Of a stretch of 64,000 nucleotides of DNA, positions 42,562 through 58,850 are shown piece after piece (the first letter of the stretch is position 1; each line of letters begins with the position of its first letter). Made by a program: the position numbers and the translations under genes. Where the stretch lies: NCBI RefSeq assembly GCF_000020985.1, contig NC_011296.1, positions 1,664,001 through 1,728,000 on the forward strand, written 5' to 3'. The notes beneath the pieces are model-generated. The model was not told where the DNA came from, ran no database searches, and saw nothing but the letters and a program-made list of their open reading frames with translations. Origin of the DNA: Thermodesulfovibrio yellowstonii DSM 11347. Lineage in GTDB: Bacteria > Nitrospirota > Thermodesulfovibrionia > Thermodesulfovibrionales > Thermodesulfovibrionaceae.

Positions 42562-42616
42562 TGTAACAAAAATTTAACATCATTGTAAATTCCCTGTAAC
42601 ATTAGAATTCTATACT
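42562..42616 (+). promoter_or_regulatory. Predicted Pho-box array and -10 of pstS (copy 1)
   Basis: Four 7-bp units start every 11 bp: TGTAACA (42562), TTTAACA (42573), TGTAAAT (42584) and TGTAACA (42595). Nine bases after the last unit is TATACT (42611-42616). There is no -35 hexamer. The 7+4 geometry equals that of known PhoB boxes, where the activator arrays replace the -35, although the unit differs from the E. coli CTGTCAT. Two further arrays with the same spacing occur near 52.5 kb. Confidence 0.75.
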
Positions 42617-42651
42617 ATAAAAAATAAAAAAAATTTAATAAGGAGGGCTTC

Positions 42652-43683
42652 ATGAAATGTTTAAAAAGTCTAACTTTAAGTAAGTTTTTTATTGTAATTG
42701 CAGTAATGTTTATTCTGTTAAGCTTCTCTATATCTTCTTTTGCTCAAATGCTCAATGGCGCAGGTGCATCTTTTCCCTATCCTCTTTATTCAAGTTGGGC
42801 TGCCGCTTATCATAAGGAAACAGGTATCCAAATTAATTATCAATCAATTGGTTCAGGTGGTGGAATAAGACAGATTACTGAAAGAACTGTTCATTTTGGT
42901 GCTTCAGACTTACCTCTTAAACCTGAAGAGCTTGAAAAAGCAGGACTTATTCAGTTCCCTGCTGCAATAGGTGGAGTTGTTCCTATAATCAATGTCCCTG
43001 AGATTAAAGGTAAAAAAATTACCTTAGATGGAATTACACTCGCAGAGATATTTCTCGGAGAAATTACAAAATGGAATGACCCTAAAATTAAAGCATTAAA
43101 TCCAAAAATTAATTTACCCGATCAACCTATTACTGTGGTTCATAGGTCAGACGGCTCAGGAACCACTTCCATATTTACTCATTATTTAAGTAGCGTATCC
43201 AAAAAATGGGCTGACCAAATTGGTTATGGAACTTCTGTAAACTGGAAAACTGGTTTAGGAGGAAAAGGAAATGAAGGTGTTGCAAACTATGTTAAAAGAA
43301 CTCCTTACTCAATTGGATATGTAGAATTTGCTTATGCTGTCCAGAACAGATTAGACACTGCAAAAATGAAAAATTCTGCTGGACAGATTGTTGAAGCCAA
43401 TTTTGAAAGTTTTGCCAATGCAGCAGCTTCTGCTCATCTTGATGCAAAAAATCATTTCTATGCATGGATGACAAATGCACCAGGCAAAAAAGCTTGGCCT
43501 ATCACAGGTGCAACTTATATTCTGCTTGCAAGAGAAAAAAATGATGTTAATAAATCCGTCATAAAATTCTTTGACTGGGCATTTAAAAATGGTGATAACA
43601 CTGCAAAAAAACTTGATTATGTCCCACTGCCTCAAAATGTAAAAGACAAAATAAGAGCATACTGGGGACTTTATATCAAATAA
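42652..43683 (+). CDS. pstS: Phosphate-binding protein PstS, copy 1
   Basis: 343 residues. An N-terminal signal peptide (about 1-31, ending SSFA) is followed by the PstS phosphate-binding motifs NGAGASFPYPLYSSW, YQSIGSGGGIRQ, FGASDLPL and VVHRSDGSGTT. It captures phosphate in the periplasm for PstCAB. There is no lipobox, so it is soluble in a Gram-negative periplasm. It stands alone under its own Pho-box array and ends in a strong terminator. A close paralogue lies at 46547-47557. AAGGAGGG precedes the ATG. Confidence 0.95.
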   Translation: MKCLKSLTLSKFFIVIAVMFILLSFSISSFAQMLNGAGASFPYPLYSSWAAAYHKETGIQINYQSIGSGGGIRQITERTVHFGASDLPLKPEELEKAGLIQFPAAIGGVVPIINVPEIKGKKITLDGITLAEIFLGEITKWNDPKIKALNPKINLPDQPITVVHRSDGSGTTSIFTHYLSSVSKKWADQIGYGTSVNWKTGLGGKGNEGVANYVKRTPYSIGYVEFAYAVQNRLDTAKMKNSAGQIVEANFESFANAAASAHLDAKNHFYAWMTNAPGKKAWPITGATYILLAREKNDVNKSVIKFFDWAFKNGDNTAKKLDYVPLPQNVKDKIRAYWGLYIK

Positions 43684-43686
43684 AAA

Positions 43687-43729
43687 AGAGAAAGCCCGAA
43701 GCAAAATAATGCTTTGGGCTTTCTCTTTT
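43687..43729 (+). terminator. Rho-independent terminator after pstS copy 1
   Basis: A 16-bp stem pairs AGAGAAAGCCCGAAGC (43687-43702) with GCTTTGGGCTTTCTCT (43711-43726), with an 8-nt loop and a T run after it. The A-rich flank on the other side lets it also serve the convergent TmcB-like gene. Confidence 0.9.
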
Positions 43730-43816
43730 ATTTCAGGAAATCTCCTGTTTATTTAATTTTTACTTCTTTCAAAACTTGTTCATAGTTTTTTCATAAAGCA
43801 GGATAATACTTTGTAA

Positions 43817-45421
43817 TTATTCTGGTAGTTCCTCCAAGTTCAAAAATGGTGGTATTGTTGCAATAGCATTAACAATCAACTCTGCAAGTCCCGAGTAGTT
43901 TATTTTAAATCTATCAAATAATCTGTAAGTGTGTATCATGTCTCTTATAGCGCCTTTACAATTTGAGCAAGTAGCAACTACAAGCTTAGGAATATTCTTA
44001 TCTAAAACATCATCAAATGTTTCTAAAATCTGTTTTGTCTTTAATCTTATTGAAACCTTATTTTTCCACACAGGGAAATTCAATGATCTTATTATTGCAA
44101 ATCCACTTCCGCCACCACAGCAGTAGTTATATGAACAGTTAGGATTCATCTCTCTGAATGTCCCGGGTGTAAGAGCCTTAATAATCTGCCTCTGCGGATT
44201 CATAATTCCCATAAGTCTCACAATATTACAAGAATCGTGCATTGTAACTGGAAAATTATTTCTCATAGGATCAAACTTTATTCTTCCACTTTTTACGATT
44301 TCCCACATAAGTGGTAAACAGGATTCTCTCTGAATATTCCATAAAGGAGAACTCGCAGGCAAAATTCTATCAAAAATGATAGTGTAAACCTTATGAGAAT
44401 GTCCGCATTCTCCTATTACAAGTTTTTTTACCCCAAGGTCATAAGCAATCTGGAGATGTCTTAATCCAACTCTCGCAAGTTCCACATCATCATACCATGC
44501 TCCATAATTTACGCCATCGTAACCAAGAGTTTCGCTACTTAAAGTATAGTTTATCCCAGCTAAATCAAATAATATAGAAAATGCTGCAATATGGTCTGGC
44601 CAGGCAAGATATTCACCTCCATTGTGAAGCAAAAGAATATCAGCTCCTTTTTTATCAACAGGAATAGTAATCTTTTTGCCTATTTTCTCATGTATTTCCT
44701 CTTCAATAAATTTAATTATATCCCTAAATGCCGTTGGTCCCATCCCTGTTGATGAGCCTGTCTTAAGATGCAATCTTGTCCCCTTTTTATAAACTTCTAC
44801 AGGTGCCATTCCAAGTTCTTGACTGAACAACTTCCTCAGTTCTCTTGCAATCAATCCATTGTCTATTCCAACAGGGCAGTAAAGAACGCATCTTCTGCAC
44901 AGTGTGCAACGATAAGCAAGCTCTAAAAGTCTTCTTATTGCTGTGTAAGTAGCTTCAATATCAGCTCCTACAAAAGATTTTAATAGTTTTCCGCTGGGAG
45001 TGAAATATCTCTTATAAATTCTTCTTAGAATTTCAGAACGAAAATTTGGTCTATATATTTCTTTCTTCCCGCTTCCTATATAAACATGGCAAGCCTCAGC
45101 ACAAGTATTGCATTTAACACAATATTTTAAAGATAGGGAAAAAGGTTTAAGAAATGTCCAGTTTGATTCAGGATTTAGAAGTTTTTCTATACCATTGAGA
45201 AATTTTTCTATTATCTTTGTTTTTTCTTCCTCAGAAGGCTCGGGAAAAGGAAATCCAGAAAATCCATCTAAGGAAAGATTATATTTTTCTCTCCATTCAT
45301 CTGGTGGATTATTAAAATCATTCTCTTCATCTATATATGGAGCTAAAGAAATTAAGTTCTCTTTTTCTATTTTTACTAAAGACTCCTTTGTTTCCTTTGC
45401 AAACTCTCTTAATGATTCCAT
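43817..45421 (-). CDS. HdrD/DsrK-family iron-sulfur protein (TmcB-like)
   Basis: 534 residues from ATG 45421, where AGGAGG lies 7 nt upstream. The longer frame to 45469 overlaps tmcC. Two [4Fe-4S] motifs are present (Cys101/104/107/111 and Cys172/175/178/182), followed by CCG-type domains with CCGGGSGF and CSNCKG near the C-terminus, which hold the noncubane cluster in heterodisulfide reductases. With the membrane partner next door this matches the Tmc or DsrMK-type complexes that pass electrons between periplasmic cytochrome and cytoplasm in sulfate reducers. No cytochrome c (TmcA) gene is nearby. Confidence 0.82.
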   Translation of the reverse strand: MESLREFAKETKESLVKIEKENLISLAPYIDEENDFNNPPDEWREKYNLSLDGFSGFPFPEPSEEEKTKIIEKFLNGIEKLLNPESNWTFLKPFSLSLKYCVKCNTCAEACHVYIGSGKKEIYRPNFRSEILRRIYKRYFTPSGKLLKSFVGADIEATYTAIRRLLELAYRCTLCRRCVLYCPVGIDNGLIARELRKLFSQELGMAPVEVYKKGTRLHLKTGSSTGMGPTAFRDIIKFIEEEIHEKIGKKITIPVDKKGADILLLHNGGEYLAWPDHIAAFSILFDLAGINYTLSSETLGYDGVNYGAWYDDVELARVGLRHLQIAYDLGVKKLVIGECGHSHKVYTIIFDRILPASSPLWNIQRESCLPLMWEIVKSGRIKFDPMRNNFPVTMHDSCNIVRLMGIMNPQRQIIKALTPGTFREMNPNCSYNYCCGGGSGFAIIRSLNFPVWKNKVSIRLKTKQILETFDDVLDKNIPKLVVATCSNCKGAIRDMIHTYRLFDRFKINYSGLAELIVNAIATIPPFLNLEELPE

Positions 45422-45431
45422 CTTAATCCTC

Positions 45432-46316
45432 CTATTTTTCATGAAGATTTGTATTTCTGGCATTTTCAAGCCATGTTTGTTCTGGCAGAATATGAGGACC
45501 AGCCCAGTTAACCTTATAATTTAGCTGTTGCAATATTTTCTTTTCTTCAGGAGAATCTTTCTTTTGATAATAATCATCCCATAAAATCTTATGGAATGTA
45601 AAAAATTTTACAGGACCGTGAAAAAATTTTGAAAAGGGTATATAAATAAGAAAAATTTCAAAGAGCAAAAAATGAATTAATGTAAAAGGATGGAATTCTG
45701 ATATGGAAAGATTAAAACTTAATACACTTTCTACATACAATAAAGCCTCCAATGTAGAATTTTCTCTATAAATCATCAATAATCCACTGATAAAAATAAC
45801 AAATAAAAAGATTAAATTAAAGTATTCAATTCCAGAGGTATAGAGTTTTAATTCTTTATTGTTAATTCTTTTTAGAATAAGTCCGACAGTCCCCACAATA
45901 CCAAGAAAGCATGATAAATAAGGTAAAAAAATAATTTTTGACAGATTCATACTATTAGACACAAAGGCTATTAAAATCAGAATGTTCCACAAAAACAACA
46001 ACCAGACACCCCAATGAAGAGCAATTGACCAAGTCCATATTCCATAAAGATTGAATTTTTTTACTCTATGAAGAAAAAATATTTCTTTAAAAGGTTCAAT
46101 AAACTCACCAAATAAACCTTTTTCATGCTTCTTTTTTATCCAGTCAACTTCTTCCATATAGGAACCTTGACATCTTTCCCTTTTTGCAGATGGAAGAGGA
46201 TATATCTCCCATCTGATATTTAATGGCATTCTTGAGATCTTAAAAAACTTCATACCAATACCTATTACCAATACAAATGGGGACAACAATGCTATCAAAT
46301 TGAGCAATGTAGCCAT
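45432..46316 (-). CDS. NarI-like membrane subunit (TmcC/DsrM-type)
   Basis: 294 residues from ATG 46316, where GGAGG is correctly spaced. The in-frame ATG at 46328 is part of that ribosome site. About five to six hydrophobic segments are seen, with His residues (WSIALHWGVW, FHPFTLIHFLLFE) suited to bind b-type haem, as in the NarI gamma subunit family. It should accept or donate quinone or cytochrome electrons for the iron-sulfur partner encoded 10 nt downstream. It is divergent from pstS copy 2. A cytoplasmic loop with several charged residues follows the first segment. Confidence 0.8.
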   Translation of the reverse strand: MATLLNLIALLSPFVLVIGIGMKFFKISRMPLNIRWEIYPLPSAKRERCQGSYMEEVDWIKKKHEKGLFGEFIEPFKEIFFLHRVKKFNLYGIWTWSIALHWGVWLLFLWNILILIAFVSNSMNLSKIIFLPYLSCFLGIVGTVGLILKRINNKELKLYTSGIEYFNLIFLFVIFISGLLMIYRENSTLEALLYVESVLSFNLSISEFHPFTLIHFLLFEIFLIYIPFSKFFHGPVKFFTFHKILWDDYYQKKDSPEEKKILQQLNYKVNWAGPHILPEQTWLENARNTNLHEK

Positions 46317-46546
46317 ATTTCCCTCCATATAAAATTTTTATATAATTTTATTAATTAAATAAATAATATAATAAACTTTTTTTAAAAATCAATATAATTT
46401 TTAAGCAATAGTATAAGCGGCATAAATAAAACCTTAACTGTGTCCTTATTGACTAAAAAATACCTATGAATTCATTTTTAAAAGGGCAAAAGAAAGCTAC
46501 AGCTATGTGATAAAATAAAAAAATATCAATATTTGAGGAGGATTTC

Positions 46547-47557
46547 ATGATTAAAACAAAATTGGCTTTATTGGTTTTATTGTTTATTTTATTAAGCTTC
46601 TCTATCTCTTCTTCTGCTGAAATGATTAATGGCGCAGGTGCAACCTTCCCCTATCCTCTTTATTCAAGTTGGGCTGCCGCTTACAATAAAGCCACAGGAA
46701 TTAAGGTTAACTATCAATCAATTGGTTCAGGTGGTGGAATAAGACAGATTACTGAAAGAACTGTTCATTTTGGTGCATCTGATATGGCATTGAAACCTGA
46801 GGAAATTGAAAAATCAAAACTTCTTCAGTTCCCTGCGGTAATAGGTGGAGTTGTACCAATTGTAAATATTCCAGGAGTCTCTTCTAATGCATTGGTTCTT
46901 GATGGAACTACAATGTGCGAAATATTTCTTGGTGAAATCAAGCAATGGAATGACCCTAAAATTAAAGCACTTAATCCCAAACTAAATCTACCAGCAAAGC
47001 CCATCACAGTTGTTCATCGCTCCGACGGTTCTGGAACAACTGCTATATTTACTCATTATCTTAGCAGTGCATGTAAAAAATGGGCAAATAATGTTGGATA
47101 CGGAACTTCAGTAAGCTGGAAAACAGGACTTGGTGGTAAGGGTAATGAAGGAGTAGCTAACTATGTAAAAAGAACTCCCTATTCAATTGGTTATGTTGAG
47201 TTTGCCTATGCAAAACAGAATAAACTCTCTGTAGTAAGGCTTAAAAATTCTGCTGGACAGATTGTTGCTCCAGACTTTGAAAGTTTTGCAGAAGCAGCAG
47301 CTTCTGCTCATCTTGATGCAAAAAATCATTTCTATGCCTGGATGACAAATGCACCAGGCAAAAAAGCTTGGCCTATTACAGGTGCAACTTATATTCTGCT
47401 TGCAAGGGAAAAAAATGATGTCAATAAATCCGTCATAAAATTCTTTGACTGGGCATTTCAAAATGGTGACAACACTGCAAAAAAACTTGATTATGTCCCG
47501 CTGCCCAAGAATTTAAAAGATAAAATAAGAACATACTGGAAATCTTATATAAAATAA
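46547..47557 (+). CDS. pstS: Phosphate-binding protein PstS, copy 2
   Basis: 336 residues, closely related to copy 1 in the same phosphate-binding motifs, with a signal peptide ending SSSA. The 3' 200 nt are almost identical to copy 1, but mid-gene blocks differ (GVSSNALVLDG against EIKGKKITLDG), giving a mosaic look. AGGAGG precedes the ATG. Unlike copy 1, no clear 11-bp Pho-box array is visible upstream. CTTAACT and CCTTATT 11 bp apart at 46433 and 46444 are a weak remnant at best, so this copy may be regulated differently. Confidence 0.95.
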   Translation: MIKTKLALLVLLFILLSFSISSSAEMINGAGATFPYPLYSSWAAAYNKATGIKVNYQSIGSGGGIRQITERTVHFGASDMALKPEEIEKSKLLQFPAVIGGVVPIVNIPGVSSNALVLDGTTMCEIFLGEIKQWNDPKIKALNPKLNLPAKPITVVHRSDGSGTTAIFTHYLSSACKKWANNVGYGTSVSWKTGLGGKGNEGVANYVKRTPYSIGYVEFAYAKQNKLSVVRLKNSAGQIVAPDFESFAEAAASAHLDAKNHFYAWMTNAPGKKAWPITGATYILLAREKNDVNKSVIKFFDWAFQNGDNTAKKLDYVPLPKNLKDKIRTYWKSYIK

Positions 47558-47566
47558 AGAATTTTC

Positions 47567-47594
47567 AACCTGAAGCGGAGTTTCGCTTCAGGTT
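47567..47594. terminator. Bidirectional terminator between pstS copy 2 and aroD
   Basis: AACCTGAAGCG (47567-47577) pairs perfectly with CGCTTCAGGTT (47584-47594) around a 6-nt loop. The second arm overlaps the aroD stop codon. The flanks are only moderately T-rich, so termination may be partial. Confidence 0.7.
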
Positions 47595-48273
47595 ACCCTC
47601 TTAATCCCATAACTTTAAAAATATGAACCATATCTTTTAAATGAATCTGCCCTGGAGCAGAAATTTCATTAAGACTTGCATATGTTATCATTGAGCCAAA
47701 GACAGGATTTATTATTCTTGATGGGATTCCTTTCTGCCCCATCCCCAGAACAATTATTCTATCCAGTTTATGTCTAAGAGTAAAATATAACAAAGTTTCT
47801 ATGTCTTTCTTTTCATTTACCATAGTAGCTATTTTTATGATGTCCATTCCCATGGTTTTGCCTCTATCAAAAACTTCTTCCAGCTGCTCCATAGATGGAG
47901 TATTTATAAAATTGTGATAAGAGCCGATTAAAGTTATATTGTTTTTAATACTCAATTGTCTTAAAAAAGGAGCTTCATTGGAAAAAATCTCAATATCAAA
48001 AAAATTGCAAAAGGGTATAACTGCCTGATATATTTCAACTCTATTCTTTATTTCTCTTTTGCCTCCTTCCTCTGGTAATCTTATTGTACAAAGCAGAGGT
48101 AGGTTATATTTTCTTTTTGCTGTCTCAAAAATATCGCTAATGTTTTCTGTCTTTTCAAACATATCAACCCTGAGTTCAATAAGATCAGCACCTTTTAACT
48201 CTTCCTTAGGAATAGACAAAACATCCTTGTCTTTGAGCACAACTGCTATGGCAGGTATATTTTGCAAAAGCAT
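47593..48273 (-). CDS. aroD: 3-dehydroquinate dehydratase, type I
   Basis: 226 residues. It dehydrates 3-dehydroquinate to 3-dehydroshikimate in the shikimate pathway. ADLIELRVDMF near the N-terminus, the catalytic His in GSYHNF and the Schiff-base Lys in DIIKIATM identify type I. It lies away from the aroF-aroA cluster, inside the phosphate island, which is an unexpected place. No strong promoter or ribosome site is evident. A hairpin 40 nt upstream separates it from the response-regulator gene. Confidence 0.93.
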   Translation of the reverse strand: MLLQNIPAIAVVLKDKDVLSIPKEELKGADLIELRVDMFEKTENISDIFETAKRKYNLPLLCTIRLPEEGGKREIKNRVEIYQAVIPFCNFFDIEIFSNEAPFLRQLSIKNNITLIGSYHNFINTPSMEQLEEVFDRGKTMGMDIIKIATMVNEKKDIETLLYFTLRHKLDRIIVLGMGQKGIPSRIINPVFGSMITYASLNEISAPGQIHLKDMVHIFKVMGLRG

Positions 48274-48314
48274 TTTAAAGTTTAACAGCTAAGAAAGCTA
48301 TAATTCAAATTATT

Positions 48315-48346
48315 AAGCCCTGAGCATTATTTAAAGCCCAGGGCTT
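48315..48346 (-). terminator. Terminator downstream of the response-regulator gene
   Basis: AAGCCCTGAGC (48315-48325) and GCCCAGGGCTT (48336-48346) form an 11-bp stem with one G-U pair, followed on the minus strand by TTAATAATTT. It probably ends the PHP-glycosyltransferase-phoA-regulator operon. Confidence 0.7.
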
Positions 48347-48378
48347 TCTGTAGGAGGGGTGGGGCTGCTAACCGCTTT

Positions 48379-48762
48379 TCAGTTAAACTGTTGTTTCTTT
48401 TTGATATAAAGCGATATCTTTTTGTAAAGCTGAAAAATATCACCTTTAATAATGTAATCTGTAACACCCTTCATAATTTTAAGTTTTTTAAGATGCGTCT
48501 CATCAATAGAAGAGTAAAATAAAACTGGAATTTTTTGTGCTTTGATATAGGTACTTATCAAATCATATAAACTATCACCTGATAATGCAGGCATGTTTAC
48601 ATCAAGAAGCACTAAATCAGGATTTAAAAATTTAATACCCTTTGTAACACCAAGCCAACCTTGATTTTCTAATACAGTATAACCGACTTTCTCAAGAAGA
48701 ATTTTTGTTAAATGTAAATCAACTTCATTGTCATCAATTAAAAGAATCTTACCTCTTTTCAT
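48379..48762 (-). CDS. Single-domain response regulator (receiver only)
   Basis: 127 residues, all receiver domain. The acidic pair DDN near residues 10-12, the phosphoacceptor Asp in LLDVNMP (about 54), the switch Ser in FYSS and the Lys in IIKGD are all kept, so it should be phosphorylated. There is no output domain. AGGAGG precedes the ATG. It is the last gene of the operon with the exported alkaline phosphatase. Its likely partner is a histidine kinase elsewhere, possibly the sensorless kinase encoded at 54363-55059 in the divergent operon (inference). Confidence 0.9.
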   Translation of the reverse strand: MKRGKILLIDDNEVDLHLTKILLEKVGYTVLENQGWLGVTKGIKFLNPDLVLLDVNMPALSGDSLYDLISTYIKAQKIPVLFYSSIDETHLKKLKIMKGVTDYIIKGDIFQLYKKISLYIKKKQQFN

Positions 48763-48783
48763 TTTTAAGCCTCCTTTATTTTC

Positions 48784-48990
48784 CTAATAGAAATTTTTGC
48801 CAAAGTATGGCTGAAAACCTGGAATCTCATGTTCAATCAGAAAATTAACTACTTCATTTACAAAAGGCGCATAATCTCTTAAATCACCAAGATGATAAAT
48901 CCTTTCAACGCCTTCATTAATGGCTGTTTCATGAGCAACTTTTAATGCTTCAATGTTACGATGAATATCACTAAGAATAGCTATTTTCAT
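48784..48990 (-). pseudogene. Truncated metallophosphoesterase (YfcE/MJ0936-like), N-terminal remnant
   Basis: 68 residues. It starts with the calcineurin-like motif SDIHRNIEAL (Asp8, His10) and reaches GDLRDYAP, which corresponds to the second metal motif GDxxGYGP. It then diverges and stops. The family is normally about 220-250 residues with GNHD and HTH motifs, and these are absent both here and in the following 20 nt. It looks like a deletion remnant, though a small protein could still be made. It sits 18 nt after phoA in the same operon. Confidence 0.65.
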
Positions 48991-49008
48991 ATATTTACTC
49001 TACTAAAC

Positions 49009-50559
49009 CTATGATATGTGAAGTCTAAGATGTCTTTCCCATTCCATATAACTTATAGCCTTAACATAGGCTATAGCATCTTGTCTGTCCATTTTTGGAT
49101 TTAAGTAATTGAATGCTAAATAATTACACATTAAATTGTAAAGTTCAGTATTATCTATAAGGTTTTTTAACTCTCCTTCGTAAAATTTTTCTCCGTAAAC
49201 AATAACAAGCTGGTCTTCGGCAGTATGATTTGTTGAAGTAAAACCCACATTACCTCTTCTTTTTTTAGCTGGTTTTATGAGTTTCTCGTTTTCATACTCA
49301 TATATACTTTTTGCCAGAATTCTCCCCATTGTATATTCTGGCTCATACCATATGTCATTGATAACTACCATTCTTTTTTCATTTAATTTTTTATAAATTT
49401 CTTCTGCTTCCTCTGAAGCGATTTTTTGTTGAGTATAGTTCTCAAAAATTTCTTTCACAGCTTTCAGATCCTGATTTTTCATCGTCTTAATCATATATTC
49501 AAAAGAAGCCCTGTTTTTATAATTCATCAAAGCCTCTGTGGCATCATTGTATTCAGGACCTGTGCCGTTTATTCCATAACCTGAGTTACCATGATCTGAG
49601 GTAACTATCAATAAAACATCAGGATTTTTGTTAATAAAATCCACAACTACTCCGATAGTTTTATCCAGTTCATAACAGTCCATCATAGCAGCATAAGCAT
49701 CATTTGCATGACAGGCATGGTCAATTCTTCCAGCCTCAATCTGAAGAACAAATCCTTTTTTATTTCTGGATAATTTTTGGAGTGCCACTGCGGTCATCTC
49801 AGGTAAAGATGGCTCTTTTTTGTTCAGTTTTTCATCATTTACTCTATCAACAAAGTAACTTATGTGAGATGAACTGAAAACGCCAAGAATAGGGCGTTCA
49901 TCGGAAATGCTGCTAATCAATTCTTCCTTAGATTTAACTACTCTATACCCCTTTGAAGAAAACATCCCATAGAGATCTTTCTTGTCCTTTCTTTTATCTC
50001 TATTAAAGAATCTATCACCACCACCCATTGCTACTTCTAAATCCGCATTTAGTAAATCAATAGCGATACTATCCTCATCGTCTCTATTAGAATTATGACT
50101 ATACCATGCAGCAGGCGTGGCATGAGTTACTCTTGTTGTGGTTACAAATCCACAGGAAAGCCCTTTTTCCTTCGCAAGCTCAAATATAGTTTTTAAATTT
50201 CTTCCATCGGGTAAAACTGACAAGCTTCTATTAACCGTCTTTGAACCTGTTGCCCAAGCAACAGATGCAGGAGCAGAATCAGTAACAACTGAAGATAAAG
50301 AAGAAGTATTCTGAAGTAAAATTCTTGTCTTAGGATTTTTAATAAGAGTTGAGAGGTTGCTTTTTTCTTTAAACTTCATCTCCATAAATTCATTCATAGC
50401 TTTCATCACTCCCAATGGCCAGCCATCTCCAACTACGAATATTACACCTTTTGCACCAGAATTGGTTGAATCAGTAACTTTTGCAAAAATTTCTTCTGAT
50501 GAAGCCATAAGAGCTATAAAACTTGCTAAAGAGACTTTCAAGAAATCTCTTCTTTCCAT
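49009..50559 (-). CDS. phoA: Exported alkaline phosphatase (PhoA family, Tat-type signal)
   Basis: 516 residues. The N-terminus MERRDFLKVS followed by a hydrophobic stretch and IFA is a twin-arginine signal, implying folding with metals before export. Metal Asp in VGDG (45) and nucleophile Ser95 in VTDSAPAS identify the PhoA fold. IEAGRIDHACHANDA and TSDHGN supply further Zn ligands, and NHTAEDQ the C-terminal His. It frees phosphate from organic phosphates outside the cytoplasm. It is in an operon with the glycosyltransferase and PHP genes under a predicted Pho-box array. Confidence 0.94.
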   Translation of the reverse strand: MERRDFLKVSLASFIALMASSEEIFAKVTDSTNSGAKGVIFVVGDGWPLGVMKAMNEFMEMKFKEKSNLSTLIKNPKTRILLQNTSSLSSVVTDSAPASVAWATGSKTVNRSLSVLPDGRNLKTIFELAKEKGLSCGFVTTTRVTHATPAAWYSHNSNRDDEDSIAIDLLNADLEVAMGGGDRFFNRDKRKDKKDLYGMFSSKGYRVVKSKEELISSISDERPILGVFSSSHISYFVDRVNDEKLNKKEPSLPEMTAVALQKLSRNKKGFVLQIEAGRIDHACHANDAYAAMMDCYELDKTIGVVVDFINKNPDVLLIVTSDHGNSGYGINGTGPEYNDATEALMNYKNRASFEYMIKTMKNQDLKAVKEIFENYTQQKIASEEAEEIYKKLNEKRMVVINDIWYEPEYTMGRILAKSIYEYENEKLIKPAKKRRGNVGFTSTNHTAEDQLVIVYGEKFYEGELKNLIDNTELYNLMCNYLAFNYLNPKMDRQDAIAYVKAISYMEWERHLRLHIS

Positions 50560-50572
50560 TATTGCACCCCCT

Positions 50573-51745
50573 TTAATTTGTTATTGCTGTTCTGAGTTTA
50601 TTAAAGATAAGTTTTAATAAAAAATTGCTCTCGTAGGGTATAATTTTCGTTTCCTTGCCAATTTTATAAGTGTTTCCTCTCCAGTTAAGTTTGCAACTTA
50701 TCAAAGGAGTAAACCATATAAGTCCTGTTATAAAATCTTTCAATGGAATTAAAATCCCTGAAAGTCCAGTAGAAGACTTCATTAATCTATTTATATAAAG
50801 ATCAAAGGCAATTTTGATTGTCACCACAGCAATAAATATTGTTATAGAATTTTTTGAAAAGCCATCTAAAATAAGCATTATTGAAGATATAAAAACAGGA
50901 TTACTAAGAGGCTCAATAAAATATTTTGAACCAGCTATTTTCCATCTTATCTTTGCCCATCTGGTATGTCTATTTAAAAATCTTCTAAGTGACCAGTATT
51001 CATTAATATTTTTAATAATATAGCTACAAAGCGCAACTTTCTTACCCTTTTCGTGCATCAATTTTCCAATCATATAATCCTCTGCCAAAACATCCTTTAC
51101 TGCATTAAATCCACCTATTTCTTCAAAATCGCTCTTTCTCATAAGCATTGACTTGCCTATGCTACAGGGCATCTTAAGAAATTTATCAAGAAAACAGACA
51201 CTTATAATTACGAAAGAGTTTAGCTGAAGGTTTTCAAGTTTAGCTCCTAAGGTTTTCCCTCCCGCTCCCATAATAAGATTGGTAACAAGTCCTGTATCAT
51301 GCGTCATAGCAGAAACAGTCCTCTTTAAATAGTCAGGTTCAACATAGACATTACTGTCACTTATGAGAAAATAATCATGTTTTGATTCCTTGTAAGCGGA
51401 AATCATATTTTTTACTTTTGGATTTAAAGCACTATATGAATTATTCAGAATAACTTTTACAAGCTCAGGATATTTATTTCTTATTTTTTCAGCAACTCTA
51501 TAAGCAGGGTCATTGTAGTCTTGAAGTGAAAGAATTACTTCATATTCAGGATAGTCCTGTTTGCAGAAGCTTTCAAGATTGTCAAATAGATTATCATCAA
51601 GACCTTTAAGTGGCTTAATTATTGAAATGGGAGGGAAATTAATAAATGCATATTCTTCCCTGAGCTTTCTTCTTAATGCTATAACTTGCAAAGCGTAAAC
51701 TGCTAAACTCATAAAAACTAAAAATAAAACTATCCATAGAATCAT
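50573..51745 (-). CDS. Lipid-type glycosyltransferase (GT21, ceramide glucosyltransferase/HpnI-like)
   Basis: 390 residues. An N-terminal membrane anchor (about 3-22) is followed by a GT-A domain with SIIKPLKGLDDNL, the acidic motif SDSNVYVEPDY, DVLAEDYMIG and the R-H-x-RW motif (RHTRW). The C-terminal hydrophobic segments (about 285-350) are typical of ceramide glucosyltransferase and the hopanoid-linked HpnI. Family members glycosylate membrane lipids. In a phosphate-starvation operon this suggests replacement of phospholipid by glycolipid (inference). AAGTGTT-type spacing to the PHP gene is 4 nt, so they are cotranslated. Confidence 0.82.
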   Translation of the reverse strand: MILWIVLFLVFMSLAVYALQVIALRRKLREEYAFINFPPISIIKPLKGLDDNLFDNLESFCKQDYPEYEVILSLQDYNDPAYRVAEKIRNKYPELVKVILNNSYSALNPKVKNMISAYKESKHDYFLISDSNVYVEPDYLKRTVSAMTHDTGLVTNLIMGAGGKTLGAKLENLQLNSFVIISVCFLDKFLKMPCSIGKSMLMRKSDFEEIGGFNAVKDVLAEDYMIGKLMHEKGKKVALCSYIIKNINEYWSLRRFLNRHTRWAKIRWKIAGSKYFIEPLSNPVFISSIMLILDGFSKNSITIFIAVVTIKIAFDLYINRLMKSSTGLSGILIPLKDFITGLIWFTPLISCKLNWRGNTYKIGKETKIIPYESNFLLKLIFNKLRTAITN

Positions 51746-51749
51746 TTTT

Positions 51750-52439
51750 TTACCCCCTAAAAAGTGTTATTGCCACACCTTTATTGTGTTTTATACATTT
51801 TTTTACTGAAACTACATTTTTCTCGCAATTAAGCAGAGTTTTCCATGAATACAAATGTCTTGCTTTATGAAAATCGCTGTTTGCTATGTATGGATATTTC
51901 TTAAGACTTACTACATTGAAGACATCATCTCTATTTGCAATTTCCCAAGCATCAATATATTTTCCGTATTTGTTTCTGTTATTCCAGAGATAAAGCGTAT
52001 TGCGTATCTCTCCCTTAATATGATGTGGATGACAGGCAACCACAACTGCATTTTGTTTTTTTGCCTCAAGAAATATTGCTTCATAAGATTCACAAGCAGG
52101 TATAAAATCTTTTATATCAATTATTAAAATATGGGATGATTTGTCAGAAGAAAGATAATTTTTACTTATCTCAACTCCCGGGATAACAAGCATCTCATAT
52201 TTATTCCATGCTCTTTCTGATTCATATCTTACATTTTCCATATATTCATTGAAATTTTTTTCAGTAATTGTAAATCTGAATCTATATGCAAATTTTCCAA
52301 TCATACTATCTCCATTTACCACATGGTCTGTTATGGCTATAACATCAAAGCCCGCTTGTCCGAAGAGATCAACTACCTTTCTAAGTTCCAGTGAACCATC
52401 TGAGTATTTGGTATGTATGTGAAAGTCACATAAAAGCAT
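51750..52439 (-). CDS. PHP-domain phosphoesterase
   Basis: 229 residues. Metal motifs of the PHP family are all present: DFHIHTKYSDGS (5-16), ITDHV, PGVEIS, CHPHHIKG and NSDFHKARH. Such enzymes hydrolyse phosphate esters, for example nucleotide phosphates or 3',5'-bisphosphates. The exact substrate is unknown. It is the first gene of the Pho operon with the glycosyltransferase and phoA. No ribosome site is visible, and the predicted start of transcription is only about 6 nt upstream, so the message may be leaderless. Confidence 0.88.
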   Translation of the reverse strand: MLLCDFHIHTKYSDGSLELRKVVDLFGQAGFDVIAITDHVVNGDSMIGKFAYRFRFTITEKNFNEYMENVRYESERAWNKYEMLVIPGVEISKNYLSSDKSSHILIIDIKDFIPACESYEAIFLEAKKQNAVVVACHPHHIKGEIRNTLYLWNNRNKYGKYIDAWEIANRDDVFNVVSLKKYPYIANSDFHKARHLYSWKTLLNCEKNVVSVKKCIKHNKGVAITLFRG

Positions 52440-52451
52440 ATTTTTAATTTA

Positions 52452-52506
52452 ATGATAGCTCTGCAAGGTTACAGGAAAGTTAAAAGTTTTTTAAATTTCT
52501 GTTAAA
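52452..52506 (-). promoter_or_regulatory. Predicted Pho-box array and -10 of the PHP-glycosyltransferase-phoA operon
   Basis: On the minus strand the units are TTTAACA (52506-52500), TTTAAAA (52495-52489), TTTAACT (52484-52478) and TGTAACC (52473-52467), each 11 bp apart. After 9 nt comes TATCAT (52457-52452). The geometry is identical to that at pstS copy 1. It is back to back with the plus-strand array that begins 14 nt away. Confidence 0.75.
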
Positions 52507-52519
52507 TTTTTACCTAAAA

Positions 52520-52574
52520 TTTAACAATGCTTTAACAGTTCCTTAATTTTCTTGTAACAAAGTTATGCAATACT
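52520..52574 (+). promoter_or_regulatory. Predicted Pho-box array and -10 of the EAL-GGDEF-kinase-GH1 operon
   Basis: Units TTTAACA (52520), TTTAACA (52531), CTTAATT (52542) and TGTAACA (52553) start every 11 bp. The last is followed after 9 nt by AATACT (52569-52574). No -35 hexamer is present. With the minus-strand array it fills the gap between two divergent operons, so one regulator would switch on both. Confidence 0.75.
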
Positions 52575-52608: not shown

Positions 52609-53358
52609 GTGCTACAAACAGAGAATAATCTTAACCAAAGTAAATTAGGTCTATTATACTCAAAGCTTACAGTTCATTTTCAACCCATATTTTCTTCAAA
52701 AAGTGGAAAAATTTTTGGCTATGAATCTTTAACAAGACATATATCCATGAGTTTGAATATAAAAGATCTCTTTCTTGAGGCAAAGAAAAATGGCTCAATA
52801 TTTATACTTGATATGATATGTAGAAGAAATGCAATTAAAAAAGCCTCAGAACAGAATATTAATAGTTATTTATTTATTAATATCTGCCCTGAAACTCTTT
52901 TTTATCCTCAACATGAGATTGGTATAACAGATAGATTTTCTGAAGAGTTTGGCTTTCCAAAAGACAAGATAGTACTTGAGATAACTGAACAGTCAGCAAT
53001 AGAAAATTATGAAGTATTTATTAAATCTGTCTCATACTATAAAAAGAGAGGTTACAAGATCGCTATAGATGATTTTGGAGCAGGTTTTGGAGGACCTAAA
53101 CTTCTAAGCATTCTTGAACCAGATATTGTAAAAATAGACAGACATTTTATAAATACTATGGAAGAAAATCATTTTTCAAAGTCCTTTATAGAATTTACTG
53201 TGTCAGTATGTCACAGATTGAATATAATGGTTGTGGCTGAAGGAATTGAAACAGCCATTCAACTCAAAGAAACTGTTAATGCTGGAGTAGACCTTCTTCA
53301 AGGATTTTATCTTGGAAAGCCTCAAGAAAAAATTCAATACAATTATGTTACCACATGA
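52609..53358 (+). CDS. EAL-domain cyclic-di-GMP phosphodiesterase
   Basis: 249 residues from GTG 52609 (GGAGG 8 nt upstream; the nearby ATG at 52602 is out of frame). It is almost purely an EAL domain with the catalytic set intact: Glu39 (ESL), Asn91, Glu124 (EITEQ), Asp154/155 (DDFGAGFGG), Lys175, Glu211 (EGIET) and Gln231 (QGFYLGKP). It should hydrolyse c-di-GMP. The frame ends just as a CBS-GGDEF protein begins in the +1 frame, with an A6 run (53327-53332) at the junction. The pair resembles a split version of single-chain EAL-CBS-GGDEF proteins. Confidence 0.92.
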   Translation: MLQTENNLNQSKLGLLYSKLTVHFQPIFSSKSGKIFGYESLTRHISMSLNIKDLFLEAKKNGSIFILDMICRRNAIKKASEQNINSYLFINICPETLFYPQHEIGITDRFSEEFGFPKDKIVLEITEQSAIENYEVFIKSVSYYKKRGYKIAIDDFGAGFGGPKLLSILEPDIVKIDRHFINTMEENHFSKSFIEFTVSVCHRLNIMVVAEGIETAIQLKETVNAGVDLLQGFYLGKPQEKIQYNYVTT

Positions 53359-54370
53359 TTTGAAATCATTTAAATGCGATATAGAACCATCAATTTTGGA
53401 TTTATCAATAGGAGATATTGCAATTAGAGTAGAACCACTATATAAAACATCTAAAATCATGGATGCTTTCTTTAAATTTATGAAAGATGAAGAACTGAGC
53501 CTGATTCCTGTGTTAGATAATAATATTGTAATTGGACAGATTCATAGAAACAGGTTTTTGGAACATACAGTGCTTGGGAGATTCGGCTATGGCATCCATT
53601 TAAATGCCCAGAAATCCATCTTTGAAGTTATGGAAAAACCCAATCTTGTTATTGATTATCATATGACACTTGAAGATGCTTCTATGATAGTTCAGAAAAG
53701 AGAATTAAGAAATCTATATGACGATATAATTGTTAGCAGAAATAACGAGTATTATGGAATTGTTCCCATAAATGTTTTACTTGAAACAATAACCCAAAGA
53801 TCACTGATAATAGCGAGGGATGCAAATCCCCTTACTGGATTGCCTGGAAACTGGGCTATTCAAAGAGAGATAGAAAGAAAAATTAGATGCAAATGTCCTT
53901 TTAATGTGTGCTACATAGACATAAATCATTTCAAGCCTTATAACGACTACTATGGATTTGAAAAGGGAGATAAAGTAATTTCAAGTATTGGTAATATACT
54001 TAATAAAATAAAAAAAGACTTTCCTGAAATCTTTATAGGACATATTGGAGGCGATGATTTTATAATCATCTGTAATAATGAAGTTTCTGAATTAGTATGT
54101 AAAAGAGTGATTAAAGAGTTTGAAGAGCTTTTGCCATATTTTCATGAAGGGGATTTCATAAAAGGATATTATGTCTCAAAAAATAGAAAAGATGAGCAAG
54201 AGGCTTTCAATCTTCTTTCGCTTACATGCGCAATTGTGAGTACAGAAACAAGAAATATAACCTCTTTTGCTCATCTTGCCTCAATTGCTTCTGAAGTTAA
54301 AGCTGAAGCTAAAAGACTTTCAAGAGTGAGTAAAACTTCTGTTATATTCAAGGACAGAAGAAATGAATAA
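53345..54370 (+). CDS. CBS-pair and GGDEF-domain protein
   Basis: 341 residues from ATG 53345, overlapping the EAL gene by 14 nt with no ribosome site. The frame is also open to an ATG at 53312. A CBS pair (about 20-150), which usually binds adenine nucleotides, is followed by a GGDEF domain (about 157-335) with DANPLTGLPGN, FKPYNDYYGFEKGD and the active-site variant GGDDF (about 235-239). No inhibitory RxxD site is seen before it. It may make c-di-GMP or act as a GTP-binding regulatory partner of the EAL protein. Variant GGDDF leaves activity uncertain. Confidence 0.88.
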   Translation: MLPHDLKSFKCDIEPSILDLSIGDIAIRVEPLYKTSKIMDAFFKFMKDEELSLIPVLDNNIVIGQIHRNRFLEHTVLGRFGYGIHLNAQKSIFEVMEKPNLVIDYHMTLEDASMIVQKRELRNLYDDIIVSRNNEYYGIVPINVLLETITQRSLIIARDANPLTGLPGNWAIQREIERKIRCKCPFNVCYIDINHFKPYNDYYGFEKGDKVISSIGNILNKIKKDFPEIFIGHIGGDDFIIICNNEVSELVCKRVIKEFEELLPYFHEGDFIKGYYVSKNRKDEQEAFNLLSLTCAIVSTETRNITSFAHLASIASEVKAEAKRLSRVSKTSVIFKDRRNE

Positions 54371-55059
54371 AGCACAAATCCCCTATTTATCAATTTTTTT
54401 CCATGAGTTAAAATCGCCTCTTAGTGCTATAGCCAATACTGCTAAACTAATTGAATTAAGTCTTGATAAACCAGATGTAGAAAAAATTAGAAAATATACC
54501 TCTTTAATTATTTCACAGGCATTTTTTTCTCAAAAATTACATCTCAAATACCATTCAACTTGGTAAACTTCAATCAGGCAAGGAAGAGTTAATAATTGAA
54601 GAATTTAATCTTGAAGAAATTCTTAATGAAATTGTAGAAATAACAAAAATTCTTATAGAAAATAAGCCTATAAAAGTAAAAACAGCCTTACACTCTGATA
54701 AATTTATAATACGCTCTGACCCTGTTAAAATAAAACAAATTCTTTTAAATATTGCATCAAACTCTGCAAAATTCACCCAAGAGGGTTACATTTTATTTGC
54801 GTTGCAAAAATTGAATAATAATGTTTTAGTCAAAATTAAGGATACAGGGAAAGGAATTCCTAAGGAAAAACAAAAAAAGATATTTAATCCTTATTGCTCA
54901 ACAGAATCTTTTTATGAAAAACTATATGAAAGCTCAGGACTTGGGCTTTACATAACAAAGAAATTAATAAGTATACTCAACGGTAATATTTCAATAGAGA
55001 GCAAATATGGAAAAGGAACAACAGTTTACATATCAATCCCATTCAAAAATGAGGAATAA
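54363..55059 (+). pseudogene. Sensorless histidine kinase with a frameshift in a T7 run
   Basis: The first frame (54363-54566) encodes the His box FFHELKSPLS (His14) and stops. The continuation is in the next frame to 55059. Skipping one T in the run at 54522-54528 joins them into a 231-residue kinase reading through NYISNTIQLGKL, with N box NIASNSAKF, G1 DTGKGIP and G2 SSGLGLYI. No sensor, PAS or membrane segment is present. The rest of the frame is intact, so it is a fresh mutation, a slippage-controlled gene or a sequence error. It overlaps the GGDEF gene by 8 nt and GH1 by 11 nt. Confidence 0.8.
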
Positions 55060-56290
55060 AGATTTTCTCTGGGGTGTAGCTACTTCTGCATTTCAGCTTG
55101 AAGGCTCTCCTTATGCAGACTGGTCTACCTGGGACAGTATTTTTAGTCTTAATCCTAAGATTACAAATCACTATGAACTTTACAGAGAAGATATAAGGCT
55201 AATAAAAAATCTTGGGGTCAATTCCTATAGATTTTCAATTGAGTGGAGCAGAATTCAACCCTCTGAGGATTACTGGAATAAAGAAGTTGTAAGACATTAT
55301 CAAAAAATTATAAATCTTTTAAATGAAAACAATATAAAACCTATGATTACAATACATCATTTTACACACCCCGTATGGTTTATAACAAAATATCCCTGGC
55401 ACAAGAAAAAATCCATAGATAAATTTATGGAATATGTTGAAAGACTGATTGAAAATATTAACAATGTTGACTACTGGCTCACTTTCAATGAGCCTTATTT
55501 ATTAATACTCGGTGGATATATTGAAGGATGCATTCCACCAGGATATCAGAATTTAAATTTAGCCTTGAAAGCAATGAAAAACATATTTATATGCCATAGA
55601 CAAATTTATGACCTACTTCATTTAAAAAACAAAAATAGCATGGTAAGCATAGCCCATAACATGGCTGTATTTGCACCGTGGATAAAATGTAATCCTTTTG
55701 ACAGACTTCTGGCAAAAATAGCAAAAAGATTTTATAATCACTCCATCATTGAAGGCTTTATGGATGGAAAAATCAGTCTTCCTATTCCTTTTAGAAAAAC
55801 AATGGAAATTGAGGTTCCTATAAAGGGAAAGCTTGATTTTTTTGGAATTAACTATTATACAAGAGTTCATATGCGATTTAATCCTCTAAGGAAGCTTTTT
55901 ATTGAATTCAGACACAGAGATATAGATGGACATGGGCTTACTGATATGGGATGGGAGATATATCCAAAGGGATTAAAGAAGGTTCTCAAATACGCTTCTA
56001 AATTAAATGTTCCGCTAATTATAACAGAAAATGGTATAGCTACAAAGGATGACAATAAAAAAATGAAATTTATCAAAGCTCACGTGGATGTTATTGAAAA
56101 CGCTATCTCAGAAGGAATAGATGTAAGGGGATACTTTTATTGGTCATTGATAGACAACTATGAATGGCTTCATGGACTTGATGCAAGATTTGGACTTTAC
56201 AGGGTTGACTTTAAAACATACAGAAGAATTCCAACAAAAGCAGCAGCTTTTTATTCATACATAATAAACTCAAGAAACTTTCGGAGTTAG
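55049..56290 (+). CDS. Glycoside hydrolase family 1 (beta-glucosidase-like)
   Basis: 413 residues from ATG 55049, where the family start FLWGVATSAFQLEG begins. A longer frame to 55007 lies within the kinase gene. The acid/base Glu148 in LTFNEP and the nucleophile Glu327 in IITENG are both present. There is no signal peptide, so it is cytoplasmic. It is a little shorter than most GH1 enzymes. It should cleave beta-glycosides, but its substrate is unknown. Placement in a phosphate-controlled operon, opposite a lipid glycosyltransferase, raises glycolipid or osmolyte turnover as an idea (inference). Confidence 0.9.
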   Translation: MRNKDFLWGVATSAFQLEGSPYADWSTWDSIFSLNPKITNHYELYREDIRLIKNLGVNSYRFSIEWSRIQPSEDYWNKEVVRHYQKIINLLNENNIKPMITIHHFTHPVWFITKYPWHKKKSIDKFMEYVERLIENINNVDYWLTFNEPYLLILGGYIEGCIPPGYQNLNLALKAMKNIFICHRQIYDLLHLKNKNSMVSIAHNMAVFAPWIKCNPFDRLLAKIAKRFYNHSIIEGFMDGKISLPIPFRKTMEIEVPIKGKLDFFGINYYTRVHMRFNPLRKLFIEFRHRDIDGHGLTDMGWEIYPKGLKKVLKYASKLNVPLIITENGIATKDDNKKMKFIKAHVDVIENAISEGIDVRGYFYWSLIDNYEWLHGLDARFGLYRVDFKTYRRIPTKAAAFYSYIINSRNFRS

Positions 56291-56329: not shown

Positions 56330-57259
56330 ATGAAAAAACAAAAGGGTAAATTAACGGATATAGTATTTTTATCTATTACTGCCTTTACTGCTTTCAGTAT
56401 AATCGCTATTTCATTTGGAATTTTTGTAGTGTTATTCAAAGAATCCCTCCCTGCAATGAATAAATTCGGGTTTGAAGGATTCATTTTTTCAACTGAATGG
56501 GATCCGGTTCAAGAAACATTTGGTGCTGCTCCTGCGTTAATAGGAACATTGATAACTTCCTTTTTTGCTTTGCTTTTAGCAGTCCCTATTGCCACAGGAA
56601 TTGCAATTTTTATAACAGAAATTGCTCCTTCCTTTTTAAAAGGGATTATAGGAACTGCTATAGAACTACTTGCTGCTATTCCAAGCATAATTTATGGAAT
56701 GTGGGGTCTTTTTACCCTTGCTCCCATAATGAGCCGATACATAGAACCTTTCTTACAATCAACAGTTGGCAAATTACCACTTTTAGGCAAGCTTTTTGAG
56801 GGAACTCCTCTTGGAGTTGATCTTTTTACAGCAAGTATTATTCTAAGCATAATGATAATTCCCTTCACAGCTTCAATAGCAAGAGATTCTTTTAATTTAA
56901 CTCCTTCTGTACTTAAAGAATCTGCCTATGCAATTGGAGCAACAAAGTGGGAAGTTGTAAAAAATATTGTTTTGCCATATTCAAAACTTGGTGTTCTCGG
57001 TGGTGTAGGACTTTCATTGGGGAGATCTCTTGGCGAAACAATGGCAGTTGCCTTTGTTCTTGGCAATTTAAATCAAATTCCTACATCACTCTTTGATGCT
57101 GCAGCGACTGTTACAGTAAAACTTGCGAATGAGTTTACTGAAGCTGATAAAGATATATATCTTAGTTCTCTTTATTATCTTGCTTTCTTACTTTTTATAA
57201 TGAGTTTTACTATTCTTGCACTTGCGAAGGTATTCCTATTGAAGGCTGAGAGAAAATGA
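56330..57259 (+). CDS. pstC: Phosphate ABC transporter permease PstC
   Basis: 309 residues with six predicted membrane helices. The first helix is followed by a periplasmic loop that includes SAEWDP-like FSTEWDPVQETFGAAP, typical of PstC. The coupling segment with EAAYAIGATKWEVVKNIVLP (here ESAYAIGATKW) contacts PstB. It forms the phosphate channel with PstA. The ATG lacks a strong ribosome site (TGGAATA). It overlaps pstA by 4 nt, and it follows the GH1 gene by 39 nt. Confidence 0.95.
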   Translation: MKKQKGKLTDIVFLSITAFTAFSIIAISFGIFVVLFKESLPAMNKFGFEGFIFSTEWDPVQETFGAAPALIGTLITSFFALLLAVPIATGIAIFITEIAPSFLKGIIGTAIELLAAIPSIIYGMWGLFTLAPIMSRYIEPFLQSTVGKLPLLGKLFEGTPLGVDLFTASIILSIMIIPFTASIARDSFNLTPSVLKESAYAIGATKWEVVKNIVLPYSKLGVLGGVGLSLGRSLGETMAVAFVLGNLNQIPTSLFDAAATVTVKLANEFTEADKDIYLSSLYYLAFLLFIMSFTILALAKVFLLKAERK

Positions 57260-58095
57260 TATTAAAAAAGAGAAAAATAACCAGCGCTATCGCACTTTTT
57301 ATATGCTTTCTGACTGCCTTATGGGGTATATTCTGGCTTTTTTTTATAATTATTGACGTTTTAAGACATGGGATTACATCCATAAATCCTTCTTTATTTT
57401 TAAATGATCCTGCTCCGCCAGGAGAAGAAGGCGGAGGATTAAGAAATGCCTTTGTAGGGCATCTACTCATTACAGTATTTGCTACTTTGATTGGAGTTCC
57501 AGTTGGTGTTCTCGGCGGGACATTTCTTGCTGAGTATGGAAGAAAATATCAAATATCAAAAATCATAAGCACTCTTGCAGATATTATGGTTAGTGTTCCT
57601 GCAATAATTGTTGGTGCTTTTGTCTACGCAATAATTGTTAAACCTCTCGGACACTTCAGTGGATGGGCAGGTGCTGTATCTCTCGGTATCATTATGATTC
57701 CTACAGTGTTAAGAACGACAGAAAATATGCTTTCTCTCATCCCCTGGACATTAAGAGAAGCTGCTTTTGCACTTGGAGCACCTTATTACAAGGTAATTAT
57801 TCAGGTTGTCTACAGAGGTGCTGCCACAGGTATTCTTACAGGAATTATTCTTGCTATTGCAAGAGTAACTGGAGAAGCCGCTCCATTGTTATTTACATCA
57901 TTTAACAATACATTCTTCTCTACAAACATGAATGCACCTATAGCATCCCTTACAGTAACCATATTTCAATATGCCATGGGACCATATGAAGACTGGCATA
58001 CTCAGGCATGGGGTGCATCCTTAATGATAACTGTCTTTATTCTTTTTGCAACAATCATTGGAAGAATTCTTATAAAAAGGAGGTATAGAGATTGA
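57256..58095 (+). CDS. pstA: Phosphate ABC transporter permease PstA
   Basis: 279 residues with six membrane helices. PstA signatures are the [12 protein letters not shown] loop region, the conserved [12 protein letters not shown], and the [22 protein letters not shown] coupling loop. It pairs with PstC to pass phosphate inward. It overlaps pstC and pstB by 4 nt each, so pstCAB is a coupled unit. The PstS partners are encoded 9 and 13 kb upstream. Confidence 0.95.
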
Positions 58096-58850
58096 ATCCT
58101 GAAATTGAAGTAAGAAATCTTAATTTTTACTATACCGGTAACATTCACATTCTTAAAAATATAAATATGACTGTTTATAAATACAAAGTTACAGCACTAA
58201 TTGGGCCAAGTGGATGCGGAAAAACCACGCTTTTAAGATGTTTTAATAGAATGCATGACCTATATGCAGGGAATAGATATGAGGGTGAGATAATTTTTCA
58301 GGGACAGAATATACTATCAAAAGATACAGACCTCATTGAACTGAGAAGCAAAATTGGAATGGTATTTCAGAAACCTACCCCTTTTCCAATGTCAATATTT
58401 GAAAACATTGCCTATGGATTAAAGCTTAAAGGTATAAGAAACAAAACAGAGTTAAAACAAAGAGTTGAAAAAGCCTTAAACAATGCTGCTCTTTGGGATG
58501 AAGTAAAGGATAAACTAAATACAAACGCATTTGGACTAAGTGGTGGACAACAGCAGCGACTTTGCATTGCACGAGCATTGGCAGTTGAACCTGAAATTAT
58601 ATTATTTGACGAACCTACATCTGCTCTTGATCCCATATCAACAGCAAAAATTGAAGAGTTAATTGTTTCATTAAAAGATAAGGTAACAATTATAATTGTC
58701 ACTCATAATATGCAGCAGGCAGCAAGAATATCAGACTGGACAGGTTTTATGATGCTCGGAGAACTTATTGAGTATGATAAAACAGATAAAATATTCACAG
58801 TTCCCTCAAACAAACTTACAGAAGACTATATCACAGGAAGATTTGGTTAA
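58092..58850 (+). CDS. pstB: Phosphate ABC transporter ATPase PstB
   Basis: 252 residues from TTG 58092, which overlaps the pstA stop (TTGA) and has AGGAGG about 8 nt upstream. Walker [10 protein letters not shown], the PstB-specific CFNRMHDL after it, signature LSGGQQQR, Walker [13 protein letters not shown] and switch His in [13 protein letters not shown] are complete. It powers phosphate uptake. No phoU follows it, unlike the usual order. Its last 4 nt overlap the convergent lipoprotein gene. Confidence 0.96.

Follow-up and report, generated by a model that had tools for sequence, protein, structure and literature searches.

The PhoP box of Bacillus subtilis consists of TTAACA-like direct repeats that replace the -35 element, with a looser repeat spacing than that described below. 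In Vibrio cholerae, PhoB is reportedly linked with c-di-GMP enzymes. The PHO box of Escherichia coli is composed of 11-bp tandem units of the type CTGTCAT. When read in the frame used here, E. coli pstS carries CTGTCATA, CTGTCATA, CTTACATA, and CTGTCACC, one per 11 bp, followed by 9 nt and TATTTT, and phoA carries two units, followed by 9 nt and TATAGT. ChIP-seq sites of E. coli PhoB contain TGTAACA, with TGTAACCCGTATGTAACA at mglB (PMC10294691). The cyanobacterial SphR Pho box has the consensus CTTAACCT and is formed by at least three direct repeats with an 11-bp period (8+3) (PMC1906773), and the most conserved nucleotides of the Riemerella anatipestifer PhoP motif, as determined by DAP-seq, are TTTAACA (PMC9603813). 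In a further source, the repeat features of the B. subtilis PhoP box are called similar (PMC4415409). Among sulfate reducers, PhoB of Desulfovibrio vulgaris (DVU1083) has pst genes and genes of HD/EAL phosphodiesterases among its targets (PMC3333781). An earlier description of a Thermodesulfovibrio Pho box was not found in the open literature, subscription journals lying outside the search.

The DNA studied here, referred to as the window, was a stretch of 64,000 nucleotides (1,664,001–1,728,000) of the single-contig genome of Thermodesulfovibrio yellowstonii DSM 11347 (2,003,803 bases). The earlier note on this DNA had described four 7-bp units, one every 11 bp, at each of three promoters, with the -10 starting 9 nt past the last unit in each case. 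On re-reading, all coordinates were exact, and the -10 elements TATACT, TATCAT, and AATACT were located at that distance. The promoter features are as follows.

42562–42601, plus strand: putative Pho-box array 1, pstS1 promoter; 2 mismatches to (TKTAACA-N4)x4; matrix score 40.6
42562, 42573, 42584, 42595, plus strand: array 1 units TGTAACA, TTTAACA, TGTAAAT, TGTAACA; read directly
42611–42616, plus strand: pstS1 -10 TATACT, 9 nt past array 1, without -35; same spacing in relatives
52467–52506, minus strand: putative Pho-box array 2, PHP-GT21-phoA promoter; 3 mismatches; score 37.4; units conserved in seven species
52506 down to 52467, minus strand: array 2 units TTTAACA, TTTAAAA, TTTAACT, TGTAACC
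52452–52457, minus strand: PHP operon -10 TATCAT, 9 nt past array 2; read directly; region conserved
52520–52559, plus strand: putative Pho-box array 3, EAL operon promoter; 3 mismatches; score 37.1; conserved
52520, 52531, 52542, 52553, plus strand: array 3 units TTTAACA, TTTAACA, CTTAATT, TGTAACA
52569–52574, plus strand: EAL operon -10 AATACT, 9 nt past array 3; read directly

Arrays 2 and 3 stand back to back, 13 nt apart, and the third unit on the EAL side, CTTAATT, is weak, matching at 4 of 7 positions. In the window scan, the next best non-overlapping site had 8 mismatches to (TKTAACA-N4)x4, and periods of 8–10 and 12–15 yielded nothing under 6 mismatches, leaving arrays at period 11 only. 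Scoring was performed with a 40-column matrix, for which the training arrays were taken from other genomes and the window was excluded. The opposite strand of array 1 scored 12.6, and the remaining sites of the window scored at most 4.4.

The arrays share with the E. coli PHO box the 11-bp tandem units, the 9-nt gap of pstS and phoA, and the four units of pstS, and the PhoB candidate of the genome has an identical recognition helix, while the commonest units here are TGTAACA and TTTAACA instead of CTGTCAT. When the frame is shifted by one base, CTGTCAT and xTGTAAC differ chiefly by one C-to-A change. Moreover, E. coli phoE carries CTGTAATA-N3-CTTTAACA, which is the same unit type as in arrays 1–3. 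The SphR box resembles the arrays in its TTAAC core and 11-bp tandem repeats, but ends with CCT where the arrays end with CA. The likeness to Riemerella PhoP, a regulator of the Bacteroidota, concerns the TTTAACA motif. As for D. vulgaris, which is likewise a sulfate reducer with pst and EAL genes among its PhoB targets, its box differs, being reported as (c/t)GT(n)AC repeats of 6 bp separated by 4-bp spacers (PMC3333781). The earlier note had stated that the architecture appeared conserved and the sequence diverged. The geometry is indeed the same to the base, but the divergence was overstated, since the phoE units, the ChIP-seq sites, and the SphR and Riemerella motifs are similar. The consensus is TKTAACA and not CTGTCAT, though it stays within the variation of natural E. 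coli sites, and the element, judged from its letters, is a PHO box of non-CTGTCAT consensus.

The genes behind the arrays are listed below.

42652–43683, plus strand: gene of the phosphate-binding protein, pstS copy 1; shares 82% identity with copy 2
51750–52439, minus strand: PHP-domain protein (Pfam PF02811)
50573–51745, minus strand: GT21-family glycosyltransferase (Pfam PF13506, E 1.7e-46)
49009–50559, minus strand: alkaline phosphatase phoA (Pfam PF00245, E 3.6e-72)
52609–53358, plus strand: EAL-domain protein, c-di-GMP phosphodiesterase family (Pfam PF00563, E 5.2e-44)
53312–54370, plus strand: CBS-GGDEF protein, diguanylate cyclase family (Pfam PF00990 and PF00571)
54363–55058, plus strand: histidine kinase gene, frameshifted; intact in five relatives
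55007–56290, plus strand: GH1-family glycosidase (Pfam PF00232)
56330–58850, plus strand: pstC-pstA-pstB, 39 nt past the GH1 gene, without an array of its own

The small gaps and the gene order from EAL through pstCAB, which is common to G047, G052, and G194, suggest that EAL-GGDEF-kinase-GH1-pstCAB forms one transcription unit, and pstCAB is probably read from the promoter of array 3. A different pstSCAB set, equipped with an array of its own, takes the place of this arrangement in G205, G075, G072, G057, and G096. The kinase frameshift lies at a T7 run near 54521, at which the five intact relatives have one base fewer, and may represent a pseudogene, a slippage site, or a sequencing error. 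In the PHP operon, the -10 ends 12 nt before the ATG (52437–52457), so the PHP transcript would be nearly leaderless and without a Shine-Dalgarno sequence. A later start is unlikely because the PHP motif begins at residue 5. The GT21 protein is a possible glycolipid synthase. In Desulfovibrio alaskensis under phosphate limitation, glycolipids replace phospholipids via Agt, which is a different glycosyltransferase (PMC5193443).

The second pstS copy (46547–47557) lies beside aroD without a box, and copy 1 lies beside phoU with the array. PstS proteins of relatives are closer to copy 2 (about 83–89%) than to copy 1 (71–77%), and the pair suggests a tandem duplication of which the promoter and coding sequence are parting ways. 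Two minus-strand genes between the copies (43817–46328) appear by eye to encode a DsrK/HdrD-like iron-sulfur protein and a DsrM-like membrane protein; this pair was not seen at that place in the maps of relatives.

With respect to the regulator, five proteins of the genome have an OmpR-type DNA-binding domain. Among them, the PhoB candidate encoded at about 160 kb has the highest identity to E. coli PhoB (43%) and is the only one to carry RTVDVHIRRLR, the recognition helix of E. coli PhoB. A PAS-HisKA kinase gene follows directly, forming a PhoB-PhoR type pair, and the helix is kept in relatives. In several genomes of the order (e.g., G040, G093, G104, G178, G192, and G196), the best PhoB homologue was found 1–16 kb from an array on the same contig, as taken from two tables without control for contig size. 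An apparent case of PhoB autoregulation in G063 (array L108) was dropped, as the gene behind the array encodes a receiver protein of 375 aa that is more similar to another regulator.

The arrays were then viewed across the phylum. Four-unit arrays occurred in 75 of 296 phylum genomes, and each of the 11 genus members scanned, T. yellowstonii among them, had at least one. Arrays also stand before homologous genes across the phylum, and the refutation that the earlier note had named, their absence there in related genomes, did not materialise. The other 221 genomes, including nearly all Nitrospira-like ones, were without such an array, and this array-free majority counts against the Pho-box reading. 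The phylum scan found nearly no TKTAACA arrays in the Nitrospira-like genus g82 of family f27, and the E. coli-type pattern TGTCAY x4 gave essentially no matches in 77 genomes of that genus. Separately, scanning all GTDB contigs for the exact pattern yielded 37 stretches, in which true pstS boxes were mixed with unrelated tandem repeats, and these were kept out of the statistics.

From the flanks fetched from phylum genomes, 106 distinct arrays were obtained. The gene 3' of the array was pstS in 44 cases and pstC in 18 (together 62 of 106), a zinc-ribbon or HMA_2 gene in 13, EAL in 6, PHP in 5, and a receiver protein in 2, with aquaporin and GH1 once each and nine unrecognised; seven more were porin-like, a label that is a sequence reading, the two tested giving no Pfam match on the first 160 residues. 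The start codon lay a median of 41 nt past the end of the array, and TANNNT followed at offsets of 9, 10, and 11 nt in 47%, 29%, and 12% of the arrays, respectively (88% in total), compared with 0–8% at other offsets. In unit 4, beside the -10, position 2 was a G in 87% of the arrays, unit 2 favoured TTTAACA, and unit 3 was loosest at its C, although unit conservation in this table is partly built in by the pattern used for selection, unlike gene context and -10 placement. In the PHP/EAL intergenic alignment of seven species, 39 of 56 unit columns were invariant versus 18 of 113 others (Fisher p 7e-12). Interspecies conservation tracks the units, not the spacers.

As the intergenic regions are A/T-rich, arrays of this kind might arise there by chance. 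At up to 3 mismatches, the four-unit pattern matched three times in the 2.0-Mb genome, namely at arrays 1–3, while the reversed control pattern gave 0 matches in the genome and 2 in all 296 genomes. Ten local shuffles of the window reached a top matrix score of 11.0 versus 37.1–40.6 for the arrays. Chance is refuted by these results and retains a negligible probability. The earlier note had named equally good arrays at random positions as a refutation of its reading, and the genome-wide scan revealed none besides arrays 1–3; all clear arrays of the genome fall in one 10-kb stretch of phosphate genes. The three-unit pattern gave 11 matches, of which 7 lay inside or overlapped arrays 1–3, and its control gave 1. 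The four further matches, beside dnaA or upstream of rpsL (both facing away) or intragenic, scored at most 13.6 and were regarded as background. The matrix scan found no array at pstS copy 2, at phoU, in the gap before pstC, or at the phoB operon, and the lack of one at the phoB operon, pstS copy 2, and phoU counts against the Pho-box reading.

The units are also in phase with the DNA helix, and their A/T tracts could bend the DNA or serve as an UP element for the alpha subunit, helping a promoter without a -35 and without a specific activator. However, conservation across genera is position-specific, at the C of unit position 6 and the G/T of position 2, and in units 1 and 4 this C exceeds 1.9 bits. 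The arrays also accompany phosphate genes and not strong promoters in general, which makes this explanation very improbable. Somewhat less improbable, though still unlikely, is the binding of another OmpR-family response regulator, whereby the genes would respond to some other or further signal. By sequence alone, PhoB has no closer tie to the arrays than another OmpR-type regulator; the genome encodes four OmpR-type proteins besides the PhoB candidate, and PhoP of M. tuberculosis uses 11-bp tandem repeats with 7-bp motifs and a 4-bp spacer (PMC4832192). On the other hand, only the 160-kb regulator combines the helix of E. coli PhoB with the top identity to PhoB, and in many genera the arrays cluster at pstS and pstC. 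As in PHO boxes, the arrays are tandem direct repeats of 7+4 bp with an 11-bp period, replace the -35, keeping a short and constant gap to the -10, and lie at phosphate-acquisition genes with conservation in relatives, and the genome encodes a PhoB-PhoR type pair. Because of this geometry, the phosphate-gene context, the -10 placement, the unit conservation, and the regulator pair, arrays 1–3 are read, with a probability of roughly 0.9, as Pho boxes via which PhoB would activate three operons under phosphate limitation. The assignment to PhoB, which the earlier note had offered as inference, gains support from the same geometry, gene context, -10 placement, and PhoB-PhoR pair, with the binding itself predicted.

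The following mechanism is proposed for the Pho-box reading. Under phosphate limitation, PhoR would phosphorylate PhoB, and PhoB would bind head to tail, with one DNA-binding domain per 11-bp unit and two dimers per array. PhoB would then contact sigma in place of the missing -35, with RNA polymerase at the -10 starting 9 nt downstream. In this manner, pstS1 would be switched on, together with PHP-GT21-phoA for phosphate scavenging and probably glycolipid remodelling, and EAL-GGDEF-kinase-GH1-pstCAB for c-di-GMP turnover and the phosphate permease.

Further gene types were observed behind arrays elsewhere. A two-gene operon, whose products are a small protein with a double zinc ribbon and a protein with an HMA_2 domain, follows a putative Pho-box array in about ten phylum genomes (L113:498-1229, L070, L111, L114, L115, L117, L120, L066, L068, and L087), and no HMA_2 homologue was found in the T. 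yellowstonii genome. Large secreted porin-like proteins, possibly phosphate porins, lie behind arrays in family f22 and others (L031–L035, L027, and L030). In G030 (L028:1501), an array precedes an aquaporin gene and then an arsenate-reductase-like gene, for which a link of arsenic control with phosphate control is possible. Near-identical perfect arrays also precede a small basic protein of about 90–130 residues in five MAG bacteria (L128, L133, L139, L140, and L156).

The PhoB switch is ordinary in kind and, as far as the open literature shows, new for the phylum. The new elements are the phylum-wide box map, the c-di-GMP operon probably driving pstCAB, and the recurrent zinc-ribbon/HMA_2 operon. 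It is tentatively proposed, at somewhat less than even odds, that the phylum has a Pho regulon with its own core, comprising the box of the c-di-GMP operon that also drives pstCAB and the zinc-ribbon/HMA_2 operon. If true, phosphate starvation would be tied to a function not yet described, perhaps one of metal or DNA binding. For a phylum in which genetics is nearly absent, the arrays provide an operator matrix of phosphate control, by which the Pho regulons of sulfate reducers that are uncultured, and of their relatives, become readable from sequence. In addition, they are a natural example of the recognition helix of E. coli PhoB being paired with a TGTAAC, not a TGTCAT, consensus. They also point to c-di-GMP turnover and the zinc-ribbon/HMA_2 operon as candidate phosphate-responsive functions.
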